Assembly (NCBI GenBank): GCA_945870865.1 | Contig: CAMBTO010000013.1 | Location: 1 to 38,128, forward strand | Direction of reading: 5' to 3' | DNA: 38,128 bases | Origin: Klebsiella pneumoniae | Lineage (GTDB): Bacteria; Pseudomonadota; Gammaproteobacteria; Eutrophobiales; Eutrophobiaceae | Shown: positions 6,149-21,847 of the stretch, one piece after another | Layout: every line of letters starts with the position of its first letter | Numbering within the stretch: position 1 is the stretch's first letter | The notes under the pieces: generated by a model | The model's database searches: none | What the model saw: only the letters and a program-made list of their open reading frames with translations | Told to the model about the DNA's origin: nothing | Made by a program: the position numbers and the translations under genes

Positions 6149-7315
6149 TTAAAGACTGTCGTGTGTAGTTGCAGGTGTGGCAGGTATTGTTTCAGGGGTG
6201 GCCGGGGTCGGATCAACCTTGATATCAACGCGTTTATAGTCGCCCCTGGCATACAGATGGATGAGAACCGGTGTGGCGGTTTTATTCTGCCAGTACCAGC
6301 CATGTCTGCCCGCGAATGTACTGGTCAATGTGCCACTGGCACGGTCAGAGGTGTTTACCTCAAAACTTGTAAACGCACCTGTGGTATCTCCCTTGGGGTC
6401 GCCGTGAAAGTCATAATACAAGGCCTCACCGTCCGTTTGCCACGCATATTCAAAGGTGGCACCTTGCTCCAGAAAAAACTTGTATTCCCTGCCATCCCGG
6501 GGAGGTATTGTCACGGTGATGGTGTCTTTCCATCCGGCCAGAGCAATTTGTTCAGGACTTCCAGAAGCAGTAGTGTTGCCCGGTGCCTGCGACTGTAAGG
6601 TGGTCATTGCCATTTCCCCTTGCAGGCTGGTGTGTGCATAACCGTGCATCTGCATCAGAAAGAGCAGTGCGCCAGCGATGATAAGCGCATAGTTAGAAAT
6701 GACACTGAATGTCGCGAACGAACGGGCCTTGCGCCAGAAATCAATCGCCAGGATCATCAGTAATAACGCAAAAACCTGTCCCAACTCAATCCCGATGTTG
6801 AATGAGATGATATTAAGCAACAAGCTGTCCTCGCTCAACGGTAGTTCCTGCAAGCTTGAGGACAGACCGAAACCATGTATCAATCCCAGCCAAAAGATCA
6901 TGGCCATCATATTGGGAGGATTGATATTGAGGTATTTGCGGAAACCGTCAATATTGGAAAAGGCGATGTAACAGACACTGAGACCGACTATGGCATCAAT
7001 AATATAGTAGTTGAGTTGAATCGCATTAAATGTGGCAAAAATCAGTGTCACACTATGACCAAGAGTGAAGGCAGTCACATACTTGACAATGTCACGCAGG
7101 CTACGCAGAAAGAAGATGATCCCGAACACAAACAGCAGGTGATCATAACCAGTCAACATATGGGTGGCGCCGATCTGCATGTATGCCAGGTTGCCCCCGG
7201 CGATGATCGCCTGTCTTTCTGCCTCGGACATGCCATGCGCATAGGCAAACTGTGATAATAGTGTGGCTATCAATAGCCCCGCTATTATCAACATCGGGTT
7301 CCGGGTTTTTAACAT
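6149..7315 (-). CDS. HupE/UreJ-like membrane protein with a fused C-terminal periplasmic domain
   Basis: Residues 1-26 look like a signal peptide (LLIATLLSQFAYA), followed by a multi-helix HupE/UreJ_2-type domain to about residue 225. Conserved features are GATHMLTGYDHLLFVFGI, FTLGHSVTL, LIHGFGLSSSLQELPL and NIGIELGQ, which supply His and Asp residues for metal passage in this family. Residues from about 245 on form a soluble beta-rich domain: GWKDTITVTIPPRDGREYKF, LEQGATFEYAWQTDGEALYY, GRHGWYWQNKTATPVLIHLY. I recognise this part as the domain often encoded separately as a transmembrane anchor protein beside HupE and czc genes. The C terminus is Thr/Pro-rich. The family is linked to nickel, cobalt or other divalent metal transport. 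The gene lies 26 bases after czcA. Confidence 0.8.
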   Translation of the reverse strand: MLKTRNPMLIIAGLLIATLLSQFAYAHGMSEAERQAIIAGGNLAYMQIGATHMLTGYDHLLFVFGIIFFLRSLRDIVKYVTAFTLGHSVTLIFATFNAIQLNYYIIDAIVGLSVCYIAFSNIDGFRKYLNINPPNMMAMIFWLGLIHGFGLSSSLQELPLSEDSLLLNIISFNIGIELGQVFALLLMILAIDFWRKARSFATFSVISNYALIIAGALLFLMQMHGYAHTSLQGEMAMTTLQSQAPGNTTASGSPEQIALAGWKDTITVTIPPRDGREYKFFLEQGATFEYAWQTDGEALYYDFHGDPKGDTTGAFTSFEVNTSDRASGTLTSTFAGRHGWYWQNKTATPVLIHLYARGDYKRVDIKVDPTPATPETIPATPATTHDSL

Positions 7316-7340
7316 GATGTTGTGTATCCGTTTTCTGGCA

Positions 7341-10526
<3,186 letters not shown>

Positions 10527-11786
10527 TTAATGATCATGGCTGGCGCCCGACTTCTCGATGTCGGCCTTGATCAGATAACTGTTCCCGGTGACATATTCGG
10601 TCCCGGCGCTGAGACCCCCGGTGACCTCTATCCACTCGGCGTCGCTGATACCGAGTTCCAGCATGCGGACCTCGTAGGTATCACCAAACCTTGCGAACAC
10701 CACCTGAAAATCACGAAAGCCCTGTATACCCGCGCGCCGGACCGCCAGTGGCACCGCATGTTCCGCGACAGTTACCGCAGCACGTACGAACTGTCCTGGA
10801 CGCAGTTTGCCTTCCGTATTGTCGAGCGTTACACGGGCATGAATGCTCTGACTGGCATGGCTGCTCAGCGGTGACAGCTGTGTTATCGTCCCTTTGGTGA
10901 CGTTGCCATCCAGTGTCTCGATGTCGACCGGCTGTCCCGCCCTGACTGCGCCAATATCACCGGTAAAGACATCAAGCTCGATCCATACTCTGGAAAGATC
11001 CACGATCGTAAATAGCGGTTGATCCGCGGTCACTTCACCTGCCTGTACATTGCGTTTGATGATCATGCCGGTGATCGGTGCTGTCACCGCATAATCCTTC
11101 AGACTTTCACTGCTCTCGACCGTCAGCAGGCTGGTACCGGCCTGAACGATATCGCCGAGTTCAACATGCACACGCTTGACGATGCCGGGGAACCGGGGTC
11201 TGACCTGCGATACCCGGTTTGGATCAATCTCGACCCGACCCGTCAGCTTCAGTGTCTCGATGATGGTTGCCGGTCCGGCGATTTCTGTTTCAATCCCGGC
11301 CTCACTGGCAAGCGCGGCGGGGATAATGGTACGACCTTCATAACTTTCATAGCGCCACTGATAAGACTTGCCTTGATACTGAGCATTGACCGTGACATCA
11401 AAAGAGTGCGGTTCGGTCACCACGGCATTACCACGCAGCAGGTCACCTTCCGCGGCAAACTCAATCCTGTCGGTCACGTTACCGGTACGACCAAGCTCAA
11501 TCACCAGATTGACCGCTGATGGGCCAACCGGCTGTTCCTGATAATACGGGTATACGCGAAATTCCGGTGGCACACCGGTCTCAAAGATCGTGATCTCAAG
11601 TGAGAACCCGTTCTGCTGTAGCAGGCGACCGTTATGCGGACCGCGGAGAAAGTCCGCCGCGACCTCGGTATGTTCATGATCGGCGTGAATGGCGGGCTCG
11701 CTGTTTAACAACCAGCTGGCGGTAATGACAGTAACAGCGATTATGATCAGGCTCAGTATTATATTGCGTAGCATCGGGTTCACCAT
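10527..11786 (-). CDS. czcB: Periplasmic adaptor (membrane fusion protein) of the RND efflux system, CzcB-like
   Basis: This 419-residue adaptor bridges the inner-membrane pump and the outer-membrane channel. It has an N-terminal membrane anchor (IILSLIIIAVTVITASWLL), a short His-rich stretch (HADHEHTEV), an N-terminal extra domain of about 130 residues typical of CzcB, then the barrel-sandwich/lipoyl halves (VRPRFPGIVKRVHVELGDIV and YAVTAPITGMIIKRNVQAGE), a beta-barrel region (GQPVDIETLDGNVTKG) and a membrane-proximal domain. The C terminus ends SHDH. Its ATG overlaps the czcC stop by 7 bases, so translation is likely coupled. Confidence 0.92.
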   Translation of the reverse strand: MVNPMLRNIILSLIIIAVTVITASWLLNSEPAIHADHEHTEVAADFLRGPHNGRLLQQNGFSLEITIFETGVPPEFRVYPYYQEQPVGPSAVNLVIELGRTGNVTDRIEFAAEGDLLRGNAVVTEPHSFDVTVNAQYQGKSYQWRYESYEGRTIIPAALASEAGIETEIAGPATIIETLKLTGRVEIDPNRVSQVRPRFPGIVKRVHVELGDIVQAGTSLLTVESSESLKDYAVTAPITGMIIKRNVQAGEVTADQPLFTIVDLSRVWIELDVFTGDIGAVRAGQPVDIETLDGNVTKGTITQLSPLSSHASQSIHARVTLDNTEGKLRPGQFVRAAVTVAEHAVPLAVRRAGIQGFRDFQVVFARFGDTYEVRMLELGISDAEWIEVTGGLSAGTEYVTGNSYLIKADIEKSGASHDH

Positions 11787-13655: not shown

Positions 13656-14435
13656 TCACGGCGCGGTCGCTGACCCTACAGGCACCTCGGATAGCCGCAA
13701 ATCCAGATACCGTATCGCCGCCTCCAGATCCGCCGCTGTCGGTCGTTTGTGTGCCATGCCTGGGATGACCATCAGTTTGTTGTTTTTAATCCCGGTATCC
13801 TGATAGGCCTGATAAACCTCCCGGGTATCTTCCAGGTTAAAGTCCTCGGTACCGGTAATAAAGACATACCGATGATTAAGCATTTCCTGGTAACGGGGCA
13901 GTGCGGACTCACCCCAGAAATTGGCACCACTGTTATAGATTGCCCCTTTGATGACCCGGTTATATTCGGTCGCTACCATGCTTGCAACCCGGCTGCCGCC
14001 CGAAAAGCCCGAAACATAGATTCGTTCTAGGTCAACCTCATAACTGTTGATGATTACCCTGGGCGCCAGCACCGCATAGGCCACCCGGGTCGGCACATCA
14101 ATCTGGTTACCCGACTCGTTCGCGCCGATATAGATCAGATTGGTATTTTCCATCACCGCCTTCCATTCAGGTTCTATCAAACCCGAATTGCGGGAGTTGA
14201 TAAACACCAGCACACCTGCCGGTTTGACCGGGTCATAGTTGGCGGGTACAAATACTTCCCAGGTGATGGGTTGGTCGATCGGGATCTTTTCCCCGAACGG
14301 TTGGGCACCTTCCGCCCCCAGTAATTCCACGACCGTGCTGCGGGCCGTGTATTCACCCGTTGGTGGAGCAGACTCCTGTGCACTGGCCAGTGTTAGCAGT
14401 GCTGTCAACAGACTGGCGAGCAGCCATTGTTTCAT
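13656..14435 (-). CDS. Secreted alpha/beta hydrolase (PHB-depolymerase/esterase-like)
   Basis: This 259-residue protein has a clean Sec signal (QWLLASLLTALLTLASA then QE). The nucleophile elbow is GFSGGSR (Ser145), the likely acid is Asp198 in TGTEDFN, and the likely base is His229 in IPGMAHKRP. The VFVPANYDPVKPAGVLVFIN stretch is typical of polyester-depolymerase/esterase-like hydrolases. The ATG has GGGGGG 5-10 bases upstream. It is the first gene of the minus-strand block; the efflux genes follow it, but the 108-base gap 13549-13655 and the unrelated function leave it open whether they share a promoter. The substrate is unknown. Confidence 0.8.
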   Translation of the reverse strand: MKQWLLASLLTALLTLASAQESAPPTGEYTARSTVVELLGAEGAQPFGEKIPIDQPITWEVFVPANYDPVKPAGVLVFINSRNSGLIEPEWKAVMENTNLIYIGANESGNQIDVPTRVAYAVLAPRVIINSYEVDLERIYVSGFSGGSRVASMVATEYNRVIKGAIYNSGANFWGESALPRYQEMLNHRYVFITGTEDFNLEDTREVYQAYQDTGIKNNKLMVIPGMAHKRPTAADLEAAIRYLDLRLSEVPVGSATAP

Positions 14436-14561: not shown

Positions 14562-14606
14562 TGTCATCCCGAGCGTAGCCGAGGGATCTTGAACGACTGG
14601 ATTTCC
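14562..14606. repeat. Dispersed intergenic repeat unit (GTCATCCCGAG... type)
   Basis: GTCATCCCGAGCGTAGCCG is followed by AGGGATCT and, 5 bases later, GACTGGATT. The same GACTGGATT border occurs next to hairpins at 24330 and 31426. The flanking 14436-14652 is otherwise without a gene. Such units are non-coding dispersed repeats common between genes of many proteobacteria. Confidence 0.5.
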
Positions 14607-14652
14607 CCGTCGATTATCAATTGAACCACGAATAAAATTTACAAGGTCATGC

Positions 14653-14817
14653 ATGACCGACCTGATACTGTTACCCGGCTTGTTAGGCGTTTCCAGTCAA
14701 CTACGACCGCTCGGGGCCTTGCTGGAAGATAGCTGCCACCTGCATTATCTGGAACTGCCCGGCCATGGCGGGTGGCGACGGCATACAATAAAATATAATA
14801 TGGCATTAATCTCCTGA
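14653..14817 (+). pseudogene. N-terminal stump of an alpha/beta hydrolase
   Basis: A 54-codon frame reads MTDLILLPGLLGVSSQLRPL, then a DSCHLHYLELPGHGG segment, and stops after RRHTIKYNMALIS. The LILLPGLLG strand-turn and ELPGHG match the first two strands and the oxyanion-loop region of small alpha/beta hydrolases such as BioH-like or MhpC-like proteins. The nucleophile elbow, acid and base are missing. The homology stops at GHGG, after which the sequence turns AT-rich. It is a truncated remnant. The PEMT-like gene starts 19 bases after its stop. Confidence 0.6.
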
Positions 14818-14836
14818 TATCATTTTCTCTAAGCCT

Positions 14837-15583
14837 ATGTCGTTGATGAGTTTCTTCTGTTTTCTCGCGTTGATGATTGTCATCATGTTTCTGGGAGAAT
14901 ATGCAGAACCGGGAATCTACGCCTCAAGTTTCTGGCATTATCCATGTTACTGGCTGGCCTATTATTATGGTACGGTCGAGTTGAAAATATTCAAGCTTGA
15001 TGCTGTCGTAATGAAAACGATCGCGCTCGTCATCCTTGGGTATCTGTATTTGAATTTTCCGCTGGATTATCTTTCCTTGTCCGTGGTGGCCGCCGGGTTC
15101 CTGCTCAATATCCGGGCGTTCAGCAAACTGGGGCCAGAACGCACGTATTATGGTTATGAACTGGCTGACATGCCTAGCAAGGTAATTACCGGCTTTCCCT
15201 ATTCGTGGATTCCCCACCCCATGCTTACGGGAAACATCCTCGCCTATGCGGGCACGCTGATCAATGACGGTTTCCGCCAGCAATGGTGGCCACTTGCCGT
15301 GTCCCATATCGCCCTGAATTTCAGCCTGATTTTCATGGAAACCAGGATAACTTTTAAACGTCGAAGTCCGGGATTAATCTGCAGCAATAAAACGTACCGC
15401 GGTCGAATGCTGGCCGGAGGTGTGGTCATGCTGCTGGGCGCTTTGGCCGGTGGGGTCCTGGGTATGTTAGGAACAGGGAAGAGTTTGATTTGGGTTGCTC
15501 CGGTAACCGGTGCATTGATTGCTTGTCATGCCTTCGTCATGTTTCTCTGTTATTCAGGTCAACTACGTAACAAAGAGGCATAA
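14837..15583 (+). CDS. PEMT-like integral membrane methyltransferase
   Basis: This 248-residue protein has about six or seven hydrophobic segments. The central part GPERTYYGYELADMP, then GFPYSWIPHPMLTGNILAYA, resembles the SAM- and lipid-contacting region of the phosphatidylethanolamine N-methyltransferase/isoprenylcysteine methyltransferase class (the HPMLTGNI-type motif). It would methylate a membrane lipid or small molecule at the inner membrane. The start is weakly supported: ATG 14837 has no strong ribosome site, and ATG 14846 is an alternative. The next gene follows after 25 bases, so the two may form a small operon. Family assignment is by motif; the substrate is unknown. Confidence 0.7.
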   Translation: MSLMSFFCFLALMIVIMFLGEYAEPGIYASSFWHYPCYWLAYYYGTVELKIFKLDAVVMKTIALVILGYLYLNFPLDYLSLSVVAAGFLLNIRAFSKLGPERTYYGYELADMPSKVITGFPYSWIPHPMLTGNILAYAGTLINDGFRQQWWPLAVSHIALNFSLIFMETRITFKRRSPGLICSNKTYRGRMLAGGVVMLLGALAGGVLGMLGTGKSLIWVAPVTGALIACHAFVMFLCYSGQLRNKEA

Positions 15584-15608
15584 ACCATTTCTCATGGAGA
15601 CAGCGTAC

Positions 15609-16442
15609 ATGAATAGCACAGGAGAAGTCAGCAGACTGGATGAAGGTCGCCGGTTGATCAGACAGAGTCGGATATTCCCCGCTTACATAGGTTGTTTCGA
15701 AGCGGAGGAACAGCGTGCCATTGTTGACGAGCTGACCAGGTGGGTGGAGGACCGCTACAGGCGGGAATTACAGGAACGTCCTTCGAAACATGAATACATC
15801 AGCAAGCTTCCCGGGGAAGTGATCGGGAAAATCGATCGTCTGCGTGACAGTACAGTGATACGTAATGCCATCAGCCGTAATTTTCCCCCGGCCTCGGTCT
15901 TGATCCCGATGAAACATACCGATGAGCTCTATATTTCCCACTATAACAAGGATCTGGGCGGGGATCAGGGTTTGTACAGCAAGCATTACGATGGAAACCT
16001 GCGTGTCTTGCCGGGTTACACGGTCGTACGTGCGCTGATTTATCTTCAGTCCGATCAGTCCTACAAGGTGATTTTTGGCAGCAGCCAGGTCGAAAAGGCC
16101 TTCACCACGTATGATTTCGGCCTGCTGGATTTTCACCGGGAATTGCACTGGGTGGAAGGCCGGTTCGACCCGGACTCCCCGCAACGGATCCTGCTCAAGT
16201 GTAATTACCTGGTCGCCCCGGCAAACAGGCGCCTGGTGACAGCGGCTGTACTTGGCGCGAACACAATGGTGTTTTACGTGGTGAAGGCGGCCATGGAATA
16301 TTCAAAAAGCCCAAAAAATCCAGCCCAGGTCCTGGTCGGTTTACTGTGTAATCTGTTCCGCCTGCTGAATAACGTGCATCCTCTGGTACCTATGCTTTTT
16401 ATGCTGCTGGTGATCGTTGGCATAGGCTGGGGGCTAATATAG
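15609..16442 (+). CDS. Unrecognised protein with a possible 2OG-Fe(II) oxygenase core and C-terminal membrane segments
   Basis: The protein has 277 residues from ATG 15609, chosen because GGAGAC lies 9-14 bases upstream; in-frame starts at 15519 and 15594 have no ribosome site. I do not recognise a named family. The middle has SKHYDGN (an HxD pair), then 55 or so residues later LLDFHRELHWVEG with a distal His, followed by RILLKCNYLV. That spacing and the LHWV strand resemble the double-stranded beta-helix fold of 2-oxoglutarate/Fe(II) dioxygenases; this is inference. The C terminus has a hydrophobic region (VPMLFMLLVIVGIGWGLI) that may anchor it in the membrane. A TonB-receptor fragment continues in the same frame right after the TAG, so the original C terminus may have been altered. 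Confidence 0.6.
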   Translation: MNSTGEVSRLDEGRRLIRQSRIFPAYIGCFEAEEQRAIVDELTRWVEDRYRRELQERPSKHEYISKLPGEVIGKIDRLRDSTVIRNAISRNFPPASVLIPMKHTDELYISHYNKDLGGDQGLYSKHYDGNLRVLPGYTVVRALIYLQSDQSYKVIFGSSQVEKAFTTYDFGLLDFHRELHWVEGRFDPDSPQRILLKCNYLVAPANRRLVTAAVLGANTMVFYVVKAAMEYSKSPKNPAQVLVGLLCNLFRLLNNVHPLVPMLFMLLVIVGIGWGLI

Positions 16443-16898
16443 GCGCGCTGGCAGGATTCCACCGTCACGGATCCCGTCACCGGCATTACCCGGAAACTCT
16501 CGGCCAACGGCGGGTTCAGCGGAAAACCCACGATCAATTTCTACAGTGAAAACGACTATGTCGTCGATATTGCCTACTGCCAGGATTTTGAAACATCCGG
16601 CTGGGCCTGGGGCTGGAACACGGCCGTCCAGGATGATCGTCTACTGTACAAGGTCAATGAACTGGAGGGTTTTGAGGAAGGTGTGGAGTTGAATGCATTC
16701 GTAGAGACCACCGCCTGGCTGGACATGAAAATCCGGCTCGAAGGCAACAACCTGCTGGACTATCTCGAGCTTCGTGACCGCCTGATCTTTGATGGACGAC
16801 GCGATCTGAGCCCCTTGCAGCAACGCGAACTCCGCTTGCGCAAACCTTCACGCTTACACATTTACATTCAGCGGGAGTTTCTAAATAAAAAGGAATAA
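16443..16898 (+). pseudogene. C-terminal fragment of a TonB-dependent receptor
   Basis: The frame immediately after the upstream TAG encodes ARWQDSTVTDPVTG, INFYSENDYVVDIAYCQDF, WAWGWNTAVQDDRLLYKVNE, GVELNAFVETTAWLDMKIRL and LHIYIQREFLNKKE, 151 codons to a TAA at 16896-16898. It aligns without gaps of note to the last ~150 residues of the intact receptor at 35967-38078, for example RWQDSSVIDPVTG, VNELDIIDESDLELNAFVET and VEGQNILNL. It covers the last barrel strands only; plug and most of the barrel are absent. No start codon or ribosome site is visible near 16443, so it is a non-functional remnant. A 45-base inverted repeat begins 4 bases after its stop. Confidence 0.85.
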
Positions 16899-16901
16899 AA
16901 A

Positions 16902-16946
16902 GGGGTCGGAGACAAAGAAAAGTGATTCTCATTTGTCTCCGACCCC
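16902..16946. repeat. Perfect inverted repeat GGGGTCGGAGACAAA / TTTGTCTCCGACCCC
   Basis: Arms at 16902-16916 and 16932-16946 pair perfectly over 15 bp around a 15-base spacer. Related sequences occur at 21855-21893, 32724-32738, 32805-32819 and, as a diverged form, 38108-38122. The form resembles REP-type termini of the kind mobilised by REP-associated tyrosine transposases; no such transposase gene is in the window. It may also end transcription of the upstream fragment. Confidence 0.75.
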
Positions 16947-16995
16947 ATTAATCGTATAATTCCAGCCCACATACACCCTTGTTCATTTCTTGATC

Positions 16996-17715
16996 ATGCA
17001 TAACAATCGACGTTCGTTTCTTAAAGGCGCAGGCGTGGCGCTGGGCGTGGCAGGTACGGCCGGTGTGCCCGTTGCCACGGTGCTTGCACAATCCACCATA
17101 GAGGCACTGCCCGCTGATACTACTCCGGTCATCCCGGGCTACCAATCGCTCAGCCTGGAAGAATCTGCCATTACCGAGGCGCTGGTCGAGCACATGTGGC
17201 CGGCGGATGATCTGGGGCCATCGGGTGTGGAGATAGGCATTGCCACGTTTATTGATCGCCAACTTGCCGGGGCGTTCGGCCGCGGCGACCGCCTGTATTC
17301 GCAGGGCCCGTTTCGGCAGGGCAAGCCACAACATGGCTACCAGTTGCCACTGACGCCGGAACAGTGGTTCAAGCTTGGGATCGCGGCGCTGAATAGCTAC
17401 AGTCAGAAGCTGCACGGCAAGACCTACGACAGGCTCGCTACCGCAGATCGTGAGGGCGTGCTGCTGGCCGTGGCCGGTGGTGAGGCCAATCTGCCCGAGC
17501 TGAATCTCGCCAGCTGGTTTAACGAACTGTTTTACCCCTTGTTCAACCAAGGCGCGTTTGCCGATCCAATTTATGGCGGCAACCGCGACAAATCCGGGTG
17601 GAAGCTGATCGGTTATCCGGGACTACCGGCCGTGTACAACCGCGATATCGTCACTTACCGTAACAAGCGCAATCCGAAGTCAGATGCGCCAAGATCGATC
17701 CAGGACCTGTCATGA
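16996..17715 (+). CDS. Gluconate 2-dehydrogenase subunit 3-like, Tat-exported partner subunit
   Basis: This protein has 239 residues from ATG 16996; a TTG two codons upstream is also possible, and neither has a clear Shine-Dalgarno. The N terminus has the twin-arginine motif NRRSFLKGAG, then a hydrophobic stretch and a cleavage site near TVLAQS. The mature part matches the gluconate-2-dehydrogenase subunit 3 (gamma) pattern: LTEALVEHMWPADDLGPSG-like residues, IGIATFIDRQLAGAFGRGD and YSQGPFRQGKPQHGYQLPLT. In this family the small subunit carries the flavoprotein across the membrane through Tat. Its stop overlaps the GMC start by ATGA, which implies coupled translation and a stable complex. Confidence 0.85.
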   Translation: MHNNRRSFLKGAGVALGVAGTAGVPVATVLAQSTIEALPADTTPVIPGYQSLSLEESAITEALVEHMWPADDLGPSGVEIGIATFIDRQLAGAFGRGDRLYSQGPFRQGKPQHGYQLPLTPEQWFKLGIAALNSYSQKLHGKTYDRLATADREGVLLAVAGGEANLPELNLASWFNELFYPLFNQGAFADPIYGGNRDKSGWKLIGYPGLPAVYNRDIVTYRNKRNPKSDAPRSIQDLS

Positions 17716-19466
17716 CGATACTGCCTGAGCGCGAAGTGGTCTTCATTGGCGGCGGGCTCACCGCCGGTCTGGTGGCGCGATCACTGGTCCCGGCGGGGCA
17801 CGATGTGCTGGTGCTGGAGCGCGGACCGGATCGCACCGGTGGCGCTGAGGCTGAGTTACCTACCCAACGCGACGAGCTGCGCTGGGGCACCCACCGCGGG
17901 CTGACACAGCGCGAGAATGTCGAAACTCTCACCTTGCGACATAACATTGATGAGCAGGCCTTGCCGATGCGACGCCTGACCAGTTTCCTGCCGGGTTTCG
18001 GTGTCGGTGGCGCAATCTCGCACTGGAACGGCCAGTGCTGGCGCTTCCAGACCACGGACCACACACTGCGAACCCATCTGGAAGGCCGCTACGGCAAGGC
18101 CGCCGTTGCCGACCTGTCTATCCAGGATTGGGGTGTGCAGTATGACGAACTCGAACCCTGGTACACCCTGTTTGAAAAACTGTTCGGCATCTCCGGCCAG
18201 GCCGGAAATCTGAAGGGCGTTGGTGTTGCCGGCGGCAATCCGTTCGAGCCGTATCGCAGTACACCCTATCCGTTGCCACCGCTGGAATCGGCACAATTCG
18301 GTTTGATGTTTCGGGAAGCGGCCAGCAGCCTCGGCTACCACCCGTTCCCGATGCCCGCGGCCAACGCCAGCAAGGTTTATACGAATCCCGACGGTATGCA
18401 GCTCGGCGCCTGCCAGTACTGCGGCCACTGCGAGCGTTTCCTGTGTGAGGCCAACGCCAAGGCATCGGCCACCAACCTGATGTTTCCGCTGGTGCGTGAC
18501 AAACAGAACTTCGAGTTGCGCGCGAATGCCGAGGTGCTCGAACTGAAATACGACAAGCGCGCCAAACGGGTTACGGCTGTCGTCTATGCCGATGTGCGCA
18601 CCGGCGAGGTCTTCGAACAGCCCGCCTCGACTGTGGTGCTTGGCGGTTATGTGTTTACCAATACCCGCTTGTTACTGCTGTCCGGCATCGGTCAGCCCTA
18701 CGATCCCGCGACAGGAGAGGGCGTGGTCGGCAAGAACTACTGCTATCAGACCACCTCCGGCGTGAATGTGTTCTTCGAGGATCACTACCTCAATCCGTTC
18801 ATGGGCGCTGGTGCACTTGGCATGACCATCGACGACTTTAACAACGATCATTTTGATCATTCCGGTCTCGGCTTCGTCGGCGGGGCCTATATCAGCGCGA
18901 ACACAATGAACGGCCGGCCCATCGACACGCGGCCGCTGCCACCCGGCACACCGCGCTGGGGCTCAAAGTGGAAGGAGGCGAATGCCAAATGGTATCTGCG
19001 CGGTGCAAACATCAACTGTCAGGGCAGCAGTTACGCCCAGCGCACTAATTATCTCGATCTCGATCCGGAATATCGCGACGCCTGGGGACGCCCGTTGTTG
19101 CGCATGACATTTGATTTCCCGGAGAACGATCTGAAGATGTCCGAATATGTGACCGGCAAGGCGCATGAAATTGCAAAAGCGATGGGCGCCACTATCACCA
19201 ATCCGGCCCCTCGCAAAGCCCCCTACGATGCACGCCCATACCAGACCACACACAACACTGGCGGCACCATCATGGGTGCCGATCCGAAGTCCAGCGTGGT
19301 GTCGCCACACCTGCAATGCTGGGATGCCGACAATCTGTTCATCAACGGCGCCAGCGTGTTCCCACAGAACTCCGGTTACAACCCGACCGGCCCGGTGGGC
19401 GCACTGGGTCTGCGACTTGGCGTTGATCTCGTCAACTATCTGCAACGACCACGGAGGCTGGGATGA
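17712..19466 (+). CDS. GMC-family FAD oxidoreductase (catalytic subunit)
   Basis: This 584-residue flavoprotein oxidises an alcohol or polyol group on an unidentified substrate. The N-terminal Rossmann motif is VVFIGGGLTAGLVARSL with the ribose-binding Glu at the end of LVLERG. A Cys cluster C234, C237, C240, C245 (CQYCGHCERFLC) matches that of gluconate/FAD-glucose dehydrogenase alpha subunits and may hold an Fe-S cluster. The C-terminal active-site region has THNTGGTIMGADP and NSGYNPTGPVGALG with the paired His and Asn. It has no signal peptide, so export would depend on the Tat signal of the preceding subunit. It overlaps both neighbours by ATGA. Electrons would pass to the cytochrome encoded next. 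Confidence 0.88.
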   Translation: MTILPEREVVFIGGGLTAGLVARSLVPAGHDVLVLERGPDRTGGAEAELPTQRDELRWGTHRGLTQRENVETLTLRHNIDEQALPMRRLTSFLPGFGVGGAISHWNGQCWRFQTTDHTLRTHLEGRYGKAAVADLSIQDWGVQYDELEPWYTLFEKLFGISGQAGNLKGVGVAGGNPFEPYRSTPYPLPPLESAQFGLMFREAASSLGYHPFPMPAANASKVYTNPDGMQLGACQYCGHCERFLCEANAKASATNLMFPLVRDKQNFELRANAEVLELKYDKRAKRVTAVVYADVRTGEVFEQPASTVVLGGYVFTNTRLLLLSGIGQPYDPATGEGVVGKNYCYQTTSGVNVFFEDHYLNPFMGAGALGMTIDDFNNDHFDHSGLGFVGGAYISANTMNGRPIDTRPLPPGTPRWGSKWKEANAKWYLRGANINCQGSSYAQRTNYLDLDPEYRDAWGRPLLRMTFDFPENDLKMSEYVTGKAHEIAKAMGATITNPAPRKAPYDARPYQTTHNTGGTIMGADPKSSVVSPHLQCWDADNLFINGASVFPQNSGYNPTGPVGALGLRLGVDLVNYLQRPRRLG

Positions 19467-19813
19467 AGTACGGTGTTTATCTGTCATTGGCACTGCTGTC
19501 GGTTTTGTCTACCGCAGCACAGGCACAGCCATCCGGGTTTGAACGCTGTGCCGTGTGCCACACAGTGACCGGCACCAGCGGCGAACAAGGCCCCAGTTTG
19601 CTCGGCATAGTCGGCCGTGCCGCTGGCGCCCTGGAAGATTTTCGTTACAGCCGCCCGATGACACGCAGTGGCATCACCTGGGATGAAACCACGCTCAATG
19701 ACTTCCTCCGCGCACCGGACGAGCTGGTGCCTGGCACGCGCATGCCGTTTGAAGGCATTGAATCAGACGCAGAGCGGGCGGCGGTCATTGAGTACCTGAA
19801 GACACTGAAATAG
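19463..19813 (+). CDS. Periplasmic monoheme cytochrome c (electron acceptor of the GMC dehydrogenase)
   Basis: This 116-residue protein has a Sec signal (YGVYLSLALLSVLSTAAQA) and one heme c site, CAVCH (Cys29, Cys32, His33). The distal ligand is probably Met94 in GTRMPFEGI. The fold pattern (GPSLLGIVGRAAG, then WDETTLNDFLRAPDELVPG) is that of class I cytochromes similar to mitochondrial cytochrome c. It overlaps the GMC gene by ATGA. In related three-subunit dehydrogenases the cytochrome partner is usually larger and multiheme, so this is a reduced version. It would hand electrons to the respiratory chain. Confidence 0.9.
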   Translation: MKYGVYLSLALLSVLSTAAQAQPSGFERCAVCHTVTGTSGEQGPSLLGIVGRAAGALEDFRYSRPMTRSGITWDETTLNDFLRAPDELVPGTRMPFEGIESDAERAAVIEYLKTLK

Positions 19814-19831
19814 CTTTATTATAGCGACAGC

Positions 19832-19876
19832 TACTTAGTTGTTCGAAATCTGGTGTGAATTGAGTAAACTGGCCCT
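19832..19876 (+). promoter_or_regulatory. Conserved upstream element, copy 1 (before the exported alpha/beta hydrolase)
   Basis: This stretch shares about 35 of 43 aligned positions with 21919-21961, upstream of the next gene. The common core is TTGTTCGAAA, then TGTGA, TTGA, AAACTG and CCCT. It ends about 25 bases before the ATG at 19901. TTCGAA is a palindrome. It is a candidate operator or promoter shared by two adjacent catabolic genes. Confidence 0.6.
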
Positions 19877-19900
19877 CGAATCACAGGGGAGGGGCAAATA

Positions 19901-21847
19901 ATGTTTAAAATTGATAATCCATATCTGAACTGGATCTCCGGCATACTGAATTACCGGAAACCACTTCTTGTCCATATCATCCAGTCAAGCCTTCTGGCAA
20001 CCACTGTGCTTACATCTCCTGCCAGCGCGCAGACAGGCTGTGAGTATCTGGATCAGTATCTGGCGCCACTGAAGTCAGAGGTGGAAGACTGGCAGACAGC
20101 ATTGGCCGGGCCCCAGGCAGGCGAAGTGCAACAACGTATGGTCGGGCCTGAAGAGTGCAGGGTTGTTGCAGAAACCATCATTCAGAATGCCCACGGCGTT
20201 CCCTATCGTCAGATCACGATGGCCCTTAGCGGTACCGTCTTTGGTTATGCACCGGTTCAAACGAAAGTTCTCCCCCCGTTGGGAAGCGGGCAGGAGGGTG
20301 AAGGTCGGGAAAACACGTTTACCGACCATGTTTTTATCACGCAGGCGCGTGGCAATATGGGTCCGTATAAACCCGGGACTGGACGCTATACATATTCGGA
20401 GGAAAATCCTAACAGCGTCGTCATTTTAATTCCGCAAAATGCCAACGACTGGAATGGCAGTATGTGGGTACTGGCACACGGGGCCTCCAGGTTCACCCCG
20501 CTGCAGTTTCATCCGCGTGAAGCCGGTAAGTTTAACCTTTACACCCAGACCAGTGAATCTGCCGGCGCCCTGATAGATGAGGGCTTTGCCGTTGTCTGGA
20601 CCCGTCGCGACGCCTCCGATGCCAATGATATCTCCTCGGATGTATCAAACACGGTGGTGCTGGATGATGGAACGCAGCTCGGCGGCCCCGGAAAGATCGG
20701 TATGGGGCTTAACAATCACCTGGGACTGATACGTGACTGGACAATAATCAGCCAGAATTTCATAGCAGAGCAACTCGGAAGAAAACCTGAGTACAAATTT
20801 TTCCGGGGACATTCTGCCGGTGCCGCCCTGGGTCGCAGCTTTGTTGTTATCAACGGTGTCAATGTCGATCATACGGGCAGTAAATTGTTCAACGGCTTTT
20901 TTCTGAATGACACCGCCGCCGGGCACGGATCTACGGCCTACTTCTGGGAACCTGCAATAGTAGATGAGAATGGCTCATTTCGACTGCAACCCAGTGAAAC
21001 CGATACGCTGACCTTTGGCAGTGAGCAAATGTCTCTTATGCCTCCGACTGTCGAAGTCATCCATGGTGCCTATCCCGGCGCATCCACATCGACCGTTCCT
21101 CACTTGTTTGAGCGGGTACCGGGGACCTATTACGACTACAAACTCGAAAACACCCGTATCAATATTGAAAAAGGTTTGGGGAACATCTGGAAAGCCTATG
21201 AAGTCGCCGGCACCGGCCACAGTGATGCATCCGCTGAAGCCTTTGATTATCCTGATCTTGCCAGAGACATGATTGATATTGGCGGTGTTGAAATGGCGCT
21301 GCATCACGCATTGTATGACTGGGTTGATACGGGTAAAAAACCGCCTCATACGCGTGTCGATGCGGTAGACGTGTGGGATCTGGATCCGGACGCAGGACCC
21401 GCCATTCAGTTACCTGAAACGGCATGCCCTCGCGGTATATACCGTCCCTATATGAATCGTCCTGATGGGACCGCTGTTGGTTCCAGCCCGGCGCTGTTCG
21501 TCCCATACCTGACCATGCCGGTTCCCCAAATCAATGTAGACCAGAAGCGTCCACCTAGCTTCAAGGAAGAATGGCTGGAGCCACTGGATGCCAATGGTCA
21601 TCTAGTGAATATGACCAACAGCTTTCTTCGTATGACCCGACCCTCTATCCAGCAGGTCTGGCACGTGCGCTATCGCAACGGTGAAAAAACTGGGATATTA
21701 CGACCCAATGAAAAATTGACCCGCGATCGATATGTTAGCTGTGTAACCGATGTCGCCAAGAGTCTGCATGCAGACAGACTGCTCACCGATGAAGCCCTTG
21801 ACTGGTATCTGGAAAAGGCGCGGACAGACGAAATCGGCGTTGATTAA
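19901..21847 (+). CDS. Large exported alpha/beta hydrolase (Abhydrolase_10-like)
   Basis: This is a 648-residue protein with an N-terminal hydrophobic signal or anchor (LLVHIIQSSLLATTVLTSP, then ASAQ). The nucleophile elbow is FRGHSAGAALGRS (Ser305), and the probable catalytic His is His440 in VAGTGHSDASAEAF. Other landmarks are VLAHGASRFTPLQFHPREAG and GFAVVWTRRDASD. The pattern fits the alpha/beta hydrolase domain family now called Abhydrolase_10, whose members are secreted and mostly uncharacterised; this placement is from memory of the motif set. A strong GGGGAGGGG ribosome site precedes the ATG. It stands alone on its own upstream element, with the amidohydrolase following after 177 bases. 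Confidence 0.75.
   Translation: MFKIDNPYLNWISGILNYRKPLLVHIIQSSLLATTVLTSPASAQTGCEYLDQYLAPLKSEVEDWQTALAGPQAGEVQQRMVGPEECRVVAETIIQNAHGVPYRQITMALSGTVFGYAPVQTKVLPPLGSGQEGEGRENTFTDHVFITQARGNMGPYKPGTGRYTYSEENPNSVVILIPQNANDWNGSMWVLAHGASRFTPLQFHPREAGKFNLYTQTSESAGALIDEGFAVVWTRRDASDANDISSDVSNTVVLDDGTQLGGPGKIGMGLNNHLGLIRDWTIISQNFIAEQLGRKPEYKFFRGHSAGAALGRSFVVINGVNVDHTGSKLFNGFFLNDTAAGHGSTAYFWEPAIVDENGSFRLQPSETDTLTFGSEQMSLMPPTVEVIHGAYPGASTSTVPHLFERVPGTYYDYKLENTRINIEKGLGNIWKAYEVAGTGHSDASAEAFDYPDLARDMIDIGGVEMALHHALYDWVDTGKKPPHTRVDAVDVWDLDPDAGPAIQLPETACPRGIYRPYMNRPDGTAVGSSPALFVPYLTMPVPQINVDQKRPPSFKEEWLEPLDANGHLVNMTNSFLRMTRPSIQQVWHVRYRNGEKTGILRPNEKLTRDRYVSCVTDVAKSLHADRLLTDEALDWYLEKARTDEIGVD

Follow-up and report, generated by a model that had tools for sequence, protein, structure and literature searches.

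A Conserved Gene Pair for a Putative Membrane-Anchored 2OG-Fe(II) Oxygenase and a PEMT-Like Methyltransferase

Related Systems

In the available portions of PMC10865791, LpxO proteins are described as dioxygenases that 2-hydroxylate lipid A and that, in Pseudomonas, are functionally paired with acyltransferases. For ornithine lipids, the hydroxylating enzymes are OlsC, OlsD and OlsE, and PmtA is the enzyme that methylates PE (available portions of PMC3972451). The gene pair described here lies in a stretch of 38,128 nucleotides, the whole of which is called the window. The pair encodes a methyltransferase (P0002) and, behind it, a putative oxygenase (P0001). By predicted role, the oxygenase is likened to LpxO, OlsC and OlsD, for which membrane-associated, site-specific bacterial lipid hydroxylation, sometimes with a cognate partner (LpxO with HtrB), is described in the available portions of PMC10865791 and PMC3972451. 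The partner of LpxO is an acyltransferase, whereas the partner here is a methyltransferase. P0001 and the other proteins of its 34-member alignment have no match to PF05118, presumably the family of the LpxO/OlsC-type hydroxylases. P0001 is not placed with the LpxO/OlsC/OlsD family because it matches no Pfam family.

The methyltransferase resembles PEMT and the bacterial phospholipid N-methyltransferases in that the partner matches PF04191 in all 34 members. It differs from PmtA, a small peripheral protein in the available portions of PMC3972451; the PF04191 partner is polytopic and its phospholipid methylation is putative. No description of a PEMT-oxygenase operon was found in the literature searched, which included the available portions of PMC10865791 and PMC3972451 and excluded most subscription journals.

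The Oxygenase Gene and Its Product

The oxygenase gene contains the following features.

15596–15599, plus strand: GGAG, Shine-Dalgarno-like, 9 bases ahead of the ATG at 15609, read off the sequence
15609–16442, plus strand: 277-aa C-terminally anchored putative 2OG-Fe(II) oxygenase (P0001), from the ORF, homologues, conservation, AlphaFold2 model and fold matches
15675–16226, plus strand: predicted oxygenase domain with a double-stranded beta-helix, about residues 23–206 (model strands 96–204; fold matches mostly 19–223)
15984–15992, plus strand: H126-Y127-D128, putative Fe(II) ligands, invariant in 34/34 rows
16146–16148, plus strand: H180, putative distal Fe(II) ligand, invariant in 34/34 rows, opening modeled strand 180–183
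16185–16187, plus strand: R193, putative 2OG-binding arginine, invariant in 34/34 rows, opening modeled strand 193–204
16383–16436, plus strand: C-terminal hydrophobic helix of the model (residues 259–276), likely membrane anchor, hydropathy 2.53 in the window protein

An in-frame ATG is also present at 15594. The ATG at 15609 is the better start because the GGAG sits 9 bases before it. The oxygenase motifs are HYD (residues 126–128) and HRELH (residues 176–180), followed by R193. The protein has no match in Pfam and NCBIfam at E <= 1 and none among PDB sequences at E <= 10. Its sole PHROGs match (0.29) was taken as chance. The oxygenase family is absent from the curated libraries searched.

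Residue conservation was read from an alignment of 34 rows (A3), made up of the window and 33 of 35 related loci. The two loci left out are L049, which contains a masked stretch, and L051, which has an unsure start. One locus was met three times (L003, L017 and L048) and is represented by L048 only. Identities to the window protein range from 57 to 64%. H126, D128, H180 and R193 are invariant in all 34 rows, and R193 falls 13 residues after H180, on modeled strand 193–204. H103, D105 and H176 are likewise invariant, and H103/D105 form a second conserved HxD in the family.

The original prediction, an HxD...H pattern with a spacing of about 55 residues, agrees with these positions: H126 and H180 are 54 residues apart. 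The hydrophobic anchor that it placed at the C-terminus is also recovered, as a 19-residue stretch with a mean hydropathy of at least 1.6 near the C-terminus in 35 of 36 oxygenase rows. To judge by this hydropathy, the C-terminal hydrophobic segment is a trait of the family. Further C-terminal residues are invariant across the 34 rows (K226, E230, Y231, K233, S234, P235, C247, N248, R251, N254 and P258). Because so many residues are invariant there, the C-terminal region is more than a plain anchor.

Predicted Fold

The AlphaFold2 model of the oxygenase, built from A3, has a mean pLDDT of 82.7 and a pTM of 0.81. Residues 1–20 and 118–122 have pLDDT below 50, and the HxD loop is of low confidence. 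The modeled elements are strand 106–110, the HxD loop, and strands 138–147, 153–156, 161–163, 169–174, 180–183 (with H180) and 193–204 (with R193). Their order and positions fit a jelly-roll.

In a Foldseek search of the PDB, the model matches 105 chains at E <= 0.001, with PHD2 as the best match. Among the 50 matches listed of these 105, nearly all are 2OG/Fe oxygenases by name; the exceptions are two uncharacterised proteins (2rg4 and 3bvc) and Vaccinia C16. VIA-align places OkaE (Z 12.4, rmsd 3.5, 174 residues aligned), 3bvc (Z 12.2) and PHD2 (Z 12.1, rmsd 3.4, 167 residues aligned) close to the model, at identities of 8–15% across the structural matches. The fold matches mostly cover residues 19–223, with roughly the last 54 residues outside them. 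The double-stranded beta-helix expected of an enzyme of this kind is thus predicted, and the best solved matches are 2OG-Fe(II) oxygenases. Neither of the two outcomes named as contrary to the original prediction, a predicted fold lacking this beta-helix or loss of the His and Asp residues in homologues, was observed. On the strength of the model, the protein very probably has a 2OG-type oxygenase fold. In this superfamily, HxD...H binds Fe(II), an arginine binds 2OG, O2 is split, the substrate is hydroxylated, and succinate and CO2 are released.

Profile searches against 2OG-Fe(II) families did not place the protein. Membership of a named Pfam 2OG family was rejected, with no families for P0001 at E <= 1 and no 2OG family among the 34 members. 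In hhalign, A3 against 14 PF13640 domains from related genomes reached 0.26% probability, not above the level of shuffled columns. These 14 domains come from 19 loci, of which three (L054, L068 and L069) had no stop-free HxD frame where read and two (L063 and L070) were omitted. The core alone and subsets reached at best 1.4%, in a set-up that failed to link 9 of the 15 pairs formed among PF13640 subsets; the other 6 pairs exceeded 60% in at least one direction. Since 9 of the 15 pairs did not exceed 60% in either direction, this result does not exclude the 2OG superfamily. It is, at the level of profiles, an indication of how far the family lies from PF13640. The superfamily assignment rests on predicted structure and motif, because the PF13640 profile-profile comparison gave no link.

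The oxygenase is like PHD2/EGLN1, bacterial P4H and OkaE in its predicted fold, its HxD...H...R order and its strand positions. It is unlike the prolyl-4-hydroxylase-like enzymes in that it has no detectable sequence-profile relation to them, a conserved C-terminal helical region with an anchor, and a fixed PEMT partner.

A separate, ordinary PF13640 2OG oxygenase is present in the window's genome (G000:C15:3895-4176, L059) and in three of four same-genus genomes.

The Methyltransferase Partner

The gene upstream of the oxygenase is as follows.

14837–15583, plus strand: PEMT-family (PF04191) polytopic membrane methyltransferase, 248 aa (P0002), PF04191 E 5.9e-11

The PF04191 match of P0002 scores 43.2 bits against a cut-off of 25, in keeping with the PEMT-like methyltransferase proposed ahead of the oxygenase. 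All 34 of the aligned PEMT partners match PF04191 (E <= 0.01). The PEMT model is helical (pLDDT 83.0) and has no match in a fold search of the PDB at E <= 0.001. The fold match of highest probability, steroid 5-alpha-reductase (0.51 at E 2.5), was not used as evidence.

A PEMT homologue, detected by blastp with the window PEMT, lies upstream of the oxygenase in 33 of 35 loci and in all 33 loci with room for one; the other two, L045 and L051, begin at or near a contig end. In 23 of the 33 pairs the stop and start overlap by 4 bases, and all spacings fall between -35 and +32, with starts set by a simple script. A PEMT-subfamily profile finds 2 of 369 class genomes at E <= 1e-10, and these are the same two genomes that carry the oxygenase. 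Both had been found through the oxygenase, and for many genomes only seven first-look PEMT candidates were scored. Co-occurrence of the two genes in other genomes, one of the checks named with the original prediction, is therefore borne out both by the upstream position and by the class genomes.

Distribution of the Oxygenase

Among the 58 nearest genomes, the oxygenase gene is present in the window's own genome only; the four others in the genus and the 32 in the family gave none. At E <= 0.1, 14 matches came from the 369 genomes searched in the class, and only the window's own and one other (G348, 6.9e-104) were judged real. The 12 weak class matches (E 0.0013 to 0.094) and one elsewhere (0.009) were taken as chance. 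In a sample of the phylum, 1 of 398 genomes, the window's own, contains the gene.

A scan of 84,980 species genomes, for which two short peptide patterns served as seeds and which was thus bound to miss divergent relatives, gave 35 loci encoding relatives of the oxygenase. Their hosts are mostly Reyranella and other MAGs labeled Rhodospirillales or Enhydrobacter; the remaining hosts include single MAGs labeled Burkholderiales, Betaproteobacteria, Lysobacteraceae and Planctomycetia. In the order around Reyranella soli, 30 of 76 genomes contain the gene. The 20 host genomes examined, corresponding to 20 of the 35 loci, each contain exactly one copy. The phages and plasmids searched gave no oxygenase match and the viral contigs no confirmed relative, and phage or plasmid cargo was rejected on these grounds. 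Anti-phage defense was also rejected, as PADLOC had no match for three proteins.

Neighboring Genes in Other Hosts

An Mpo1-like gene follows the pair in 20 of 35 loci, a class-III aminotransferase is present on the opposite strand in 18 of 35, and a phosphatidylserine decarboxylase is near the pair in 16 of 35; some contigs end too early for these counts to tell. In the oxygenase tree, which omits L051 and L045, 19 of the 20 Mpo1-bearing loci sit in a single clade of 25 rows (Reyranella-type), and the twentieth is L045. Outside this clade, the pair alone is kept and the neighbors looked at differ (a TctC receptor, a histidine kinase, HI0933-like and bestrophin-like proteins, and others). The phospholipid-type neighbors are confined to one clade and may reflect shared ancestry.

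The Mpo1-like neighbor is tentatively likened to Mpo1, a 2-hydroxy fatty acid dioxygenase, for its PF06127 match (E 1.8e-4) and a conserved H..N...H pattern. It differs in that its best score is 22 bits, below the cut-off of 24; all 8 scanned of the 20 neighbors match at E <= 0.01. The gene is also absent from the window's genome, where a search beyond the pair found no Mpo1-like gene. The literature searched held no usable statement on 2-hydroxy fatty acids of Reyranella.

In two loci (L023:9003-12344 and L042:8829-11656), the Mpo1-like gene, a class-III aminotransferase with a hydrophobic N-terminus and the phosphatidylserine decarboxylase all stand beside the pair, a possible phospholipid island of Reyranella-type genomes.

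Proposed Function and Alternatives

The reading that we favor, with somewhat better than even confidence, is that the membrane-anchored 2OG oxygenase and the PEMT-like methyltransferase together modify one membrane lipid. The oxygenase would be an Fe(II)/2-oxoglutarate-dependent enzyme with a prolyl-4-hydroxylase-like fold, and its C-terminal helix would tether it to the membrane. Fe(II) would be bound by H126, D128 and H180, and 2-oxoglutarate by R193. With the C-terminus anchored, the oxygenase domain would lie on the cytoplasmic side next to the membrane, within reach of SAM and 2OG. The PEMT-like enzyme, presumably co-translated, would act in the same pathway through SAM-dependent methylation of a membrane amphiphile. 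The same amphiphile would be hydroxylated by the oxygenase with O2 and 2OG at the cytoplasmic face; the hydroxylation, its topology and the order of the two steps are presumed. An amino-phospholipid, modified on its head group or acyl chain, is the best guess at the substrate because of the strict PEMT pairing and the phosphatidylserine decarboxylase and Mpo1-like genes in one clade.

With the genes, the likely cofactor residues and the partner enzyme now named, an undescribed modification of a lipid (or protein) is open to test. Should the substrate be a phospholipid, SAM-dependent methylation and O2-dependent hydroxylation of one bacterial membrane lipid would be joined in a single mobile operon. 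Aminolipids without identification have been reported in some soil Alphaproteobacteria (available portions of PMC11164329), and a phospholipid substrate could bear on them. A wider proposal is tentative and somewhat unlikely. It extends the pair, in the Reyranella-type clade, to a block with the phosphatidylserine decarboxylase, the class-III aminotransferase and the Mpo1-like dioxygenase. The product would be a membrane phospholipid of an undescribed class, both N-methylated and hydroxylated. The oxygenase would be the founding member of a new family of 2OG lipid hydroxylases anchored in the membrane, and lateral transfer would carry the two-gene core from one bacterial class to another.

The oxygenase could instead be a membrane-anchored protein hydroxylase of the prolyl type that acts on a membrane or ribosome-bound protein, with the PEMT-like enzyme as an ICMT-style methyltransferase of a protein or a prenyl-type group. 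The best folds among the Foldseek matches listed are protein prolyl hydroxylases (PHD2, collagen P3H1 and the bacterial P4H that acts on EF-Tu), and the PEMT fold class is common to ICMT. However, the natural-product oxygenases OkaE, ColD and AviO1 score equally, so the type of substrate cannot be read from the fold. P0002 matched PF04191 and not an ICMT family, and neighborhoods read by eye have no substrate-protein gene conserved beside the pair, which leaves protein hydroxylation unlikely. Strict co-occurrence of the two genes would also fit an oxygenase that attacks the methylated product. It would oxidatively remove N- (or S-, O-) methyl groups from a quaternary-amine lipid or metabolite, or cleave that molecule, and the two enzymes together would turn over or remodel a head group that carries methyls. 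Some 2OG oxygenases are known to act on trimethylammonium or N-methyl substrates, but a writer and an eraser translated together would cancel each other out without regulation, and such turnover is considered quite unlikely.

The substrate could also be a lipophilic metabolite of small size (a quinone, a terpenoid, a thiol or a fatty acid) in place of a phospholipid, with an O- or S-methyltransferase as the partner. Some membrane methyltransferases of the PF04191-like and related kinds act on other molecules than phospholipids, and no PDB relative fixes the substrate. Against such a metabolite, which we regard as distinctly improbable, are the phosphatidylserine decarboxylase and Mpo1-like genes that adjoin the pair in one clade. 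That the protein is a beta-helix without catalytic activity, acting as a scaffold or sensor, is extremely improbable, given that none of the four putative cofactor-site residues varies across the 34 rows.

Arrival of the Pair in the Window

The pair lies within a segment that is bounded as follows.

14594–16442, no strand: segment without a counterpart in a syntenic same-genus genome, holding the pair; acquired or replaced stretch (blastn against L079: matches stop at 14593 and resume at 16442)
16443–16898, plus strand: remaining 3' part of a TonB-receptor-like gene, with 91% identity to the C-terminal end of a 714-aa open frame in G001

The flanks are collinear with the same-genus genome G001 (window 16442–19837 at 88.6% and 13681–14382 at 87.3%, with short matches to 14593). 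At the place of the pair, G001 contains an intact 705-aa TonB-receptor-like ORF, with Plug and OMP_b-brl_3 matches, and a PEP-CTERM protein. About 140 last codons of the receptor remain in the window from 16443. On this comparison of flanks, the pair is best read as laterally acquired, in an acquired or replaced stretch, with displacement of part of the TonB-receptor-like gene. The junction falls at the oxygenase stop codon, so the last oxygenase residues may be shaped by it. In the tree, the window oxygenase groups with two Hyphomicrobiales MAGs (support 95/87) and not with its class relative L048.

The TonB-receptor-like family has 19 matches in the window's own 2.17-Mb genome. Inside the acquired stretch, a 54-codon ORF (14653–14816) has a start that resembles, by eye, the N-terminus of an alpha/beta hydrolase; it has no Pfam match and no counterpart in the fetched loci. 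An inverted repeat, GGGGTCGGAGACAAA ... TTTGTCTCCGACCCC, lies just past the receptor remnant (16895–16950) and is terminator- or REP-like. Upstream of the acquired stretch, an outer membrane efflux protein (PF02321, 11780–13030) lies beside long ORFs (6149–11786) in an arrangement that resembles a tripartite efflux operon. Downstream, at 16990–21847, are in a row a gluconate-2-dehydrogenase subunit 3, a GMC oxidoreductase, a short CxxCH ORF (cytochrome c-like by eye) and an alpha/beta hydrolase-like gene, and their order is the same in G001.
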